DNA of 64,000 nt from Purpureocillium takamizusanense (lineage: Eukaryota > Ascomycota > Sordariomycetes > Hypocreales > Ophiocordycipitaceae), in the NCBI RefSeq assembly GCF_022605165.1, contig NC_063081.1, forward strand, positions 186,001 to 250,000, given 5' to 3'. The notes under the pieces were generated by a model. It did no database searches, was not told where the DNA came from, and saw nothing but the letters and a program-made list of their open reading frames with translations. Shown one piece after another: positions 58,235 through 59,124 of this stretch. Position 1 is the first letter of the stretch; each line of letters opens with the position of its first letter. Made by a program: the position numbers and the translations under genes.

Positions 58235-59124
58235 ATGCTTCCCCTGCGCGCGTCCTTCCGCGCGATTCGGGCCCTGCCGTCGCCCGCCGCCGTCGCCACC
58301 ACCGTCGGCCGCAGAGCCGCCGTCACCTCCCGCGTACCGGCCGCAACCCGCTCCTACCACGACAAAGATATGTTTTCCCTACCCATCACATCGCATGCAT
58401 GCCCCTTTCTGGCGGTGGCGGCGACCTTTGTGTGAACAACGATCATGAGAAGGAGCAACCTTAGGCTGACATGCGCCCCGGCCAGCACTCATCGACCACT
58501 ACAGCCGGCCGCGGAATCCCGGGTCCATGGACAAGAAGGACCCGTCCGTCGGGACGGGCCTCGTCGGCGCCCCCGCCTGCGGCGACGTCATGAAGCTCCA
58601 GATCAAGGTCGACGAGAAGACGGGCACCATCACCGACGCCAAGTTCAAGACGTTTGGCTGCGGCTCTGCCATCGCCAGCTCCAGCTACCTGACCACGCTC
58701 GTCAAGGGCATGCGGTGTTCGTCTTGCCTGCCTACCCGCCCGCCCCCAGCACGCCCTCTCCTCACACAAATGCTGACGTTGATATTCTCATCTTCATAGT
58801 GGATGACGCCGCCAAGATCCGCAACGTCGACATCTCCAAGGAACTCTGCCTCCCTCCCGTCAAGCGTGAGTCGAATCTCCCCTGCCCCCTACCCCCTTCT
58901 CCTCCAAGATTATGATATCCCTACCTACCTACCTACCTACCTGTCCCACGCTGACACAACCCGGCCGCGCGCGCCCCCCCACACACACAGTCCACTGCTC
59001 TATGCTCGCCGAGGACGCCATCAAGGCTGCCATCGCCGACTATCACGGCAAGAACCCCAAGGCCTCCATCTCCGACCTCGCCGGCACCGCGCGGACGCTG
59101 GAGAAGGAGACGGCCGCGGCCTAA
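58235..59124 (+). CDS. ISU1: Mitochondrial iron-sulfur cluster scaffold protein (IscU/Isu1)
   Basis: Four exons, 58235-58367, 58489-58716, 58800-58865 and 58991-59124, give 186 residues. Residues 1-40 are an Arg/Ala/Ser-rich mitochondrial presequence. The scaffold starts with YHDKVIDHYSRPRNPGSMDKKD. The three cluster-binding cysteines are Cys75 (GAPACGD), Cys102 (FGCGS) and Cys145 (LHCSM), with Asp77 nearby. LPPVK (138-142) is the Hsp70 (Ssq1) recognition motif. The protein builds 2Fe-2S clusters with the cysteine desulfurase and frataxin. Intron 1 has no usable GT donor. Only removal of ATATGT...CAC (58368-58488) restores the conserved KVIDHY in register. Intron 2 uses a GTTCGT donor and intron 3 GTGAGT with a CAG acceptor. 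Intron 3 holds a CTAC repeat. Confidence 0.94.
58368..58488 (+). other. Probable AT-AC intron in ISU1
   Basis: The intron starts ATATGTTTTC and ends CCAGCAC, and is 121 nt long. The donor is a GTATGT consensus with G changed to A at the first base. The branch-point candidate GCTGAC (58465-58470) lies 19 nt before the end and matches the normal fungal U2-type consensus. The U12 consensus (ATATCC donor, TTCCTTAAC branch) is not met. Every GT donor in reach gives the wrong phase, and an in-frame TGA at 58466-58468 blocks a longer exon 2. Confidence 0.8.
58921..58942. repeat. (CTAC)n repeat inside ISU1 intron 3
   Basis: Five to six CTAC units within the third intron, upstream of a short AC run at the acceptor. 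Confidence 0.9.

Follow-up and report, generated by a model that had tools for sequence, protein, structure and literature searches.

The first intron of ISU1, a gene on the + strand of a 64,000-nt stretch of Purpureocillium takamizusanense DNA (hereafter the window), reads ATATGT...GCTGAC...CCAGCAC, which raises the questions of whether it truly runs from AT to AC, which spliceosome would remove it and whether it is peculiar to this genome. The gene comprises four exons (Table 1), and when the AT-AC join is used for intron 1 its 561 nt of coding sequence specify a protein of 186 residues. This protein is an IscU/Isu1 scaffold: it scores 208.5 bits against the TIGR01999 profile (cut-off 192.4), covering profile positions 1–122 of 124, and its residues 38–164 align without gaps to PDB chain 5t0v_a (iron sulfur cluster assembly protein 1, mitochondrial), the yeast protein. 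Its best-scoring named relative among the matches listed is that of Purpureocillium lilacinum. A 78-residue piece used as query found ISU1 as a single match in the whole genome (35,574,015 bases, 14 contigs); yeast requires Isu1 or its twin, Isu2. Elsewhere in the gene, the donor of intron 2, GTTCGT (58717–58722), is unusual, and intron 3 contains a run of CTAC repeats as well as a short CA run immediately 5' of its acceptor. A comparison of the whole window with Rfam gave no match at the gathering cut-offs.

Table 1. Features of ISU1, with positions numbered from the first letter of the window
Feature	Positions	Strand	Basis
Exon 1 (from the mitochondrial presequence through YHDK; phase 1 at its end)	58235..58367	+	
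Intron 1, AT-AC, 121 nt	58368..58488	+	sequence and register
Intron 1 donor ATATGT (A in place of the first G of the fungal U2-type GTATGT)	58368..58373	+	
Intron 1 branch motif GCTGAC, branch A at 58469	58465..58470	+	
Intron 1 competing CAG, 3 bases upstream of the AC end (product KALIDHY)	58483..58485	+	
Intron 1 acceptor CAC	58486..58488	+	
Exon 2	58489..58716	+	
Intron 2, GT-AG, donor GTTCGT	58717..58799	+	
Exon 3	58800..58865	+	
Intron 3, GT-AG	58866..58990	+	
Exon 4, including the stop codon	58991..59124	+	

The last letters of exon 1, which closes in phase 1, are ...GACAAAG, and the letters ATATGTTTTC come next. Its frame stays open until a stop ending at 58435, and the first-pass annotation had claimed that no GT donor in the right phase occurs before this point; scanning the frame from 58235 to that stop confirmed the claim, with zero phase-1 GT. 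Among GT...AG joins with donors at 58238–58435 and acceptors at 58440–58490, none leaves IDHYSRPRN in frame. In the same scan range seven GC...AG joins do so, all to the AG at 58485, and the residues before IDHY differ from those expected in every one. The canonical joins enumerated in these ranges were rejected. When any end letters were allowed (donors 58355–58435, acceptors 58440–58499), seven joins yielded a gap-free YHDK-x-IDHYSRPRN; with GT-AG, GC-AG and AT-AC taken as the established terminal pairs, 58368..58488 is the only one of the seven to have such a pair, and it alone yields Val at the variable position, giving YHDKVIDHY. By comparison, the forced GT-AG join in the window, from 58372 to 58505, gives the product YHDKDIRPRNPGS, whose TIGR01999 score of 191.4 bits falls below the cut-off. 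The AT-AC ends first proposed for this intron are therefore borne out by the sequence together with the enumeration of joins, and so is the argument from register, since joining 58367 to 58489 restores YHDKVIDHY in a protein that passes the IscU profile.

A second acceptor has to be considered, because a CAG lies three bases upstream of the AC end, in frame and 16 nt after the branch A. Splicing from the AT to 58485 would produce KALIDHY, and either this AT-AG form or the use of both acceptors might be the true situation. The resulting protein also exceeds the TIGR01999 cut-off, so that the profile alone is insufficient to dismiss it. However, its score of 203.5 bits is lower than that of the AT-AC protein, and it contains, as had been predicted, one extra residue, which is missing from 171 of the 231 Isu1 proteins listed from relatives (see below). 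In addition, AT-AG forms splice poorly, a result obtained for U12-type introns (PMC3584512, in the passages available). We regard AT-AG splicing here, alone or alongside AT-AC, as very unlikely.

The internal signals of intron 1 were examined with respect to spliceosome type. Its donor, ATATGT, matches GTATGT in five of six letters and has the G at +5 of U2-type sites, and its branch motif is GCTGAC, with the A 19 nt ahead of the intron's final base. An identical GCTGAC is present in the GT-AG introns 2 and 3 of the same gene, 23 and 36 nt before their ends, and of random 45-nt stretches taken from the same window, about 2% contain a perfect GCTRAC. These data uphold the first-pass description of a U2-type donor combined with a branch motif 19 nt from the end. 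Could the intron nevertheless be a true U12-type intron, excised by the minor spliceosome? Its AT-AC ends and a donor that agrees with the U12 consensus in seven of nine letters would be compatible with this, but the U12 donor rule, RTATCCTT with T tolerated for one C at +5 or +6 (excerpts of PMC2846911), does not allow the G at +5. Nor does the intron have the U12 branch site CCTTRAC near its 3' end: the best match is five of seven letters, a chance level reached in 55% of random stretches. The donors deduced for relatives (ATAAGT and ATGAGT, see below) likewise speak against a U12-type intron.

In the genome as a whole, U2 and U6 snRNAs are present, above their cut-offs, whereas U11, U12, U4atac and U6atac were not found genome-wide; the minor families had no positive control in this search, and since they matched in no control genome their absence is weak on its own. 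In a survey of more than 3,000 genomes (PMC10639083, parts consulted), neither Ascomycota nor Basidiomycota yielded convincing minor introns, and, taken with the failure to find minor snRNAs in our own search, this agrees with the first-pass remark that Pezizomycotina are generally held to lack the U12 spliceosome. On the donor, branch and minor snRNA results we rejected a U12 identity for the present signals of intron 1, and a role for the minor spliceosome is exceedingly improbable. The pairing of A and C ends postulated at first pass does have a precedent in yeast, where AT-AC is the most efficient terminal pair after GT-AG (PMC6726248, in part). Counting against our reading, AT-AC introns are described as poorly recognised by the U2-type spliceosome (in the portion seen of PMC7367187).

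In order to look for traces of the intron in relatives, three protein searches were performed, and the best 120 matches were listed of the 7,997, 7,998 and 7,996 scored, together representing 231 different proteins. The junction at the intron 1 codon is intact in 171 of these and not intact in the other 60, which divide into 26 models reading YH[DE]KD, 25 starting after the junction and 9 others. The 171 intact proteins are uninformative as to which intron, if any, their genes have, and best matches listed in this way are no measure of intron frequency across fungi.

Among the 231 listed proteins, the YH[DE]KD models come from Sordariomycetes (18, all Hypocreales), Dothideomycetes (5), Eurotiomycetes (2) and Lecanoromycetes (1). 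Lineages were looked up for every genus outside Hypocreales and for Purpureocillium and Claviceps; Ophiocordyceps, Hirsutella, Metarhizium and Pochonia were assumed by us to belong to Hypocreales. An Asp after the Lys, where YH[DE]KV is expected, needs a codon made of the final G of exon 1, an A and a T or C. Such models therefore reveal A as the first intron base and a pyrimidine as the second, but not AT itself. The deduced donors of relatives, ATATGT, ATAAGT and ATGAGT, would fit U2-type sites with A in place of G1. One P. lilacinum model (P0002) carries exactly the YHDKDIRPRNPGS product of the forced GT-AG join from 58372 to 58505.

The other end of the intron can be approached through models that read into exon 2. 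Nine such read-through models were recognised among the 231 listed proteins (P0011, P0014, P0018, P0022, P0193, P0206, P0218, P0221 and P0222), and all nine have Leu at the Val position, which makes C or T, and not G, the final base of the intron; AC itself is not read from these proteins. An AC end requires the preceding codon to finish with A, and this is possible in every case for the residue found before that Leu (A, L, P or S). Models that join inside exon 2 (P0199, P0187, P0195 and P0210) were left out of the nine, as were two that begin at the Val position itself, with V (P0211) or with M (P0224). In the Claviceps (P0018) and Venturia (P0218) models the whole intron appears to be translated. 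In P0014, P0022 and P0221 a Leu-Thr site can spell CTRAC, which would place its A 12 nt before the intron end.

After two of the searches, 24 of 28 named models from Ophiocordycipitaceae and Clavicipitaceae were not intact, while all 148 others were (145 by pattern, 3 by eye). The 28 were put in these families by their names, and P0003 (Cordyceps sp. RAO-2017) was assigned to them by similarity. The impression that broken models are confined to the two families, an effect of ranking, was discarded when the third search, made with a short query, added 53 new proteins, 19 of them intact, and revealed the signature in three further classes. As a separate observation, Isu1 of Purpureocillium, Ophiocordyceps, Metarhizium and Claviceps shares YHDKV and PRNPGS, in which it departs from the Isu1 of other Hypocreales such as Fusarium and Beauveria, with YHEKVLDHY and PRNVGS.

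Viral and prokaryote contigs were also searched for contaminant fungal DNA with a degenerate exon-donor pattern. It occurred at 2 and 26 places, none of which has [IL]DHY in the next 260 nt, and all 28 were therefore taken as chance. A comparison of IMG/VR with fungal Isu1 gave at least 597 stretches encoding IscU relatives, of which 80 loci were kept (L032–L111); two of them (L060 and L065) align from residue 3 of mitochondrial-type Isu1. These stretches may be cellular contigs filed as viral.

Are the broken models related to one another at all? They might be unrelated annotation accidents, with no ancient intron behind them, whether the AT-AC ends in the present genome are real or erroneous. 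Conservation is seen here at the protein level alone, 171 of the 231 listed proteins are intact, and the 25 models that start after the junction may have many causes, all of which would sit comfortably with this explanation. Unrelated accidents should scatter, however, whereas all 26 models that diverge immediately after YH[DE]K do so with Asp, and all nine read-through models have Leu in place of Val. As for an assembly error at the locus itself, one wrong base could not create both the AT and the AC end. We consider coincidental accidents to be distinctly unlikely.

We conclude, with a probability of about 0.86, that the first intron of ISU1 is an old U2-type AT-AC intron, common to much of Pezizomycotina, which persists because it is trapped and which is often misannotated. 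It does not appear to be peculiar to this genome, since its putative signature is found in the gene models of four Pezizomycotina classes, and traces in four fungal classes suggest that it is very old. It would have been inherited once, from the common ancestor of these classes, and its RNA would be spliced from AT to AC. The major spliceosome would recognise it through a donor, ATATGT, that is otherwise normal and through the normal branch motif GCTGAC. The first and last intron bases would then interact in the second splicing step, which could be completed at AC because an A at the first position works with a C at the last. Since a change at one end alone would make a poor pair and spoil splicing, the intron would be trapped. 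Gene finders that insist on GT-AG would in turn produce broken ISU1 models, and our comparisons suggest that some public versions of ISU1 are wrong owing to the AT-AC intron.

An alternative history is that the intron is the fossil of a U12 intron: with the loss of the minor spliceosome in ancestors of Dikarya, it would have been rescued by a change to a U2-type donor, leaving the A and C ends trapped across Pezizomycotina, and slower splicing may now limit or tune the supply of the Fe-S scaffold. We hold this to be doubtful. Human ISCU has an exon boundary at the same point of the protein as ISU1 intron 1, so the position of the intron may predate fungi.

The first-pass annotation had further suggested that splicing efficiency might be coupled to Fe-S assembly, and this suggestion is left unsupported, the sole hint of slow splicing being start-truncated proteins that have other explanations. 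One of these (P0123; 13 members on 5 contigs of up to 1,154 nt) starts just past the junction and has exons 2–4 joined, and eight others on short jgi or lgn contigs (P0181, P0184, P0189, P0200, P0204, P0214, P0219 and P0226) likewise start just past it; the contigs of all nine are about 1.0–1.4 kb long. Such proteins could reflect retention of intron 1 or merely the start chosen by a gene caller. Splicing at the junction itself would agree with a transcript-like contig of 1,166 nt (P0007), which reads KVIDHY with all exons in one frame. Among the matches listed, KVIDHY is also read by four named models assigned to Ophiocordycipitaceae or Clavicipitaceae (P0003, P0004, P0008 and P0009), the last being from O. 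camponoti-floridani, and KDI is found in O. sinensis and two other Ophiocordyceps models (P0010, P0019 and P0044). Intron hints from RNA were used in the paper on the O. camponoti-floridani genome (PMC7341126, in the sections seen), from whose annotation the P0009 protein probably comes.

A literature search, with most subscription journals outside its coverage, found no earlier report of an AT-AC intron in ISU1; the label 'AT-ac' in the part of PMC11719821 retrieved denotes a protein domain and not intron ends. The class of U2-type AT-AC introns is already known, but rare, and the explanation that such introns persist because both ends must change together (PMC2831892, as excerpted) has so far been built on few examples. 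An intron common to several classes of a subphylum without the minor spliceosome, in a single-copy core gene, would, if true, be a strong natural case, which existing RNA reads could test; those of the published strain are deposited as SRR16888993 (PMC9302088). For annotation, the YH[DE]KD models lose or alter residues conserved in other Isu1 proteins, and several public Isu1 models among the 60 non-intact ones of the 231 listed are worth re-annotating. The main interest lies in the apparent age and spread of the intron, as judged from sequence comparison, and in the broken models that indicate its presence.

ISU1 intron 1 can be set beside several known systems. With U12-type AT-AC introns it has the terminal dinucleotides and part of the donor in common, but it lacks the ATATCC donor and the U12 branch site, and the minor snRNAs were not found in our search. 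In Saccharomyces, the AT-AC protointron of SUT635 and the AT-AC use in RPL30 similarly depend on the major spliceosome of an ascomycete without U12; these cases are non-coding or alternative, unlike the normal coding intron of ISU1, and no standard yeast intron normally uses AT-AC (all from excerpts of PMC6726248). Within Hypocreales, RNA data of Trichoderma longibrachiatum include AT-AC at 69 of 14,305 junctions, as counted by one read mapper (PMC4324775, partial text), so that the order was already known to contain introns of this class; the available passages of that paper name neither ISU1 nor conservation. A further parallel is found in the sodium channel genes of animals (SCN4A intron 21 and its relatives), whose U2-type AT-AC introns are derived by the authors from U12 introns and for which trapping of both ends has been proposed (PMC2831892, same excerpts). 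ISU1 is a different gene in a different kingdom, in a group without the minor spliceosome, and its intron is known here from sequence alone. Like those introns, it has AT-AC ends, a G at +5 and the signals of the major spliceosome, and it would likewise owe its persistence to the trapping of its ends.
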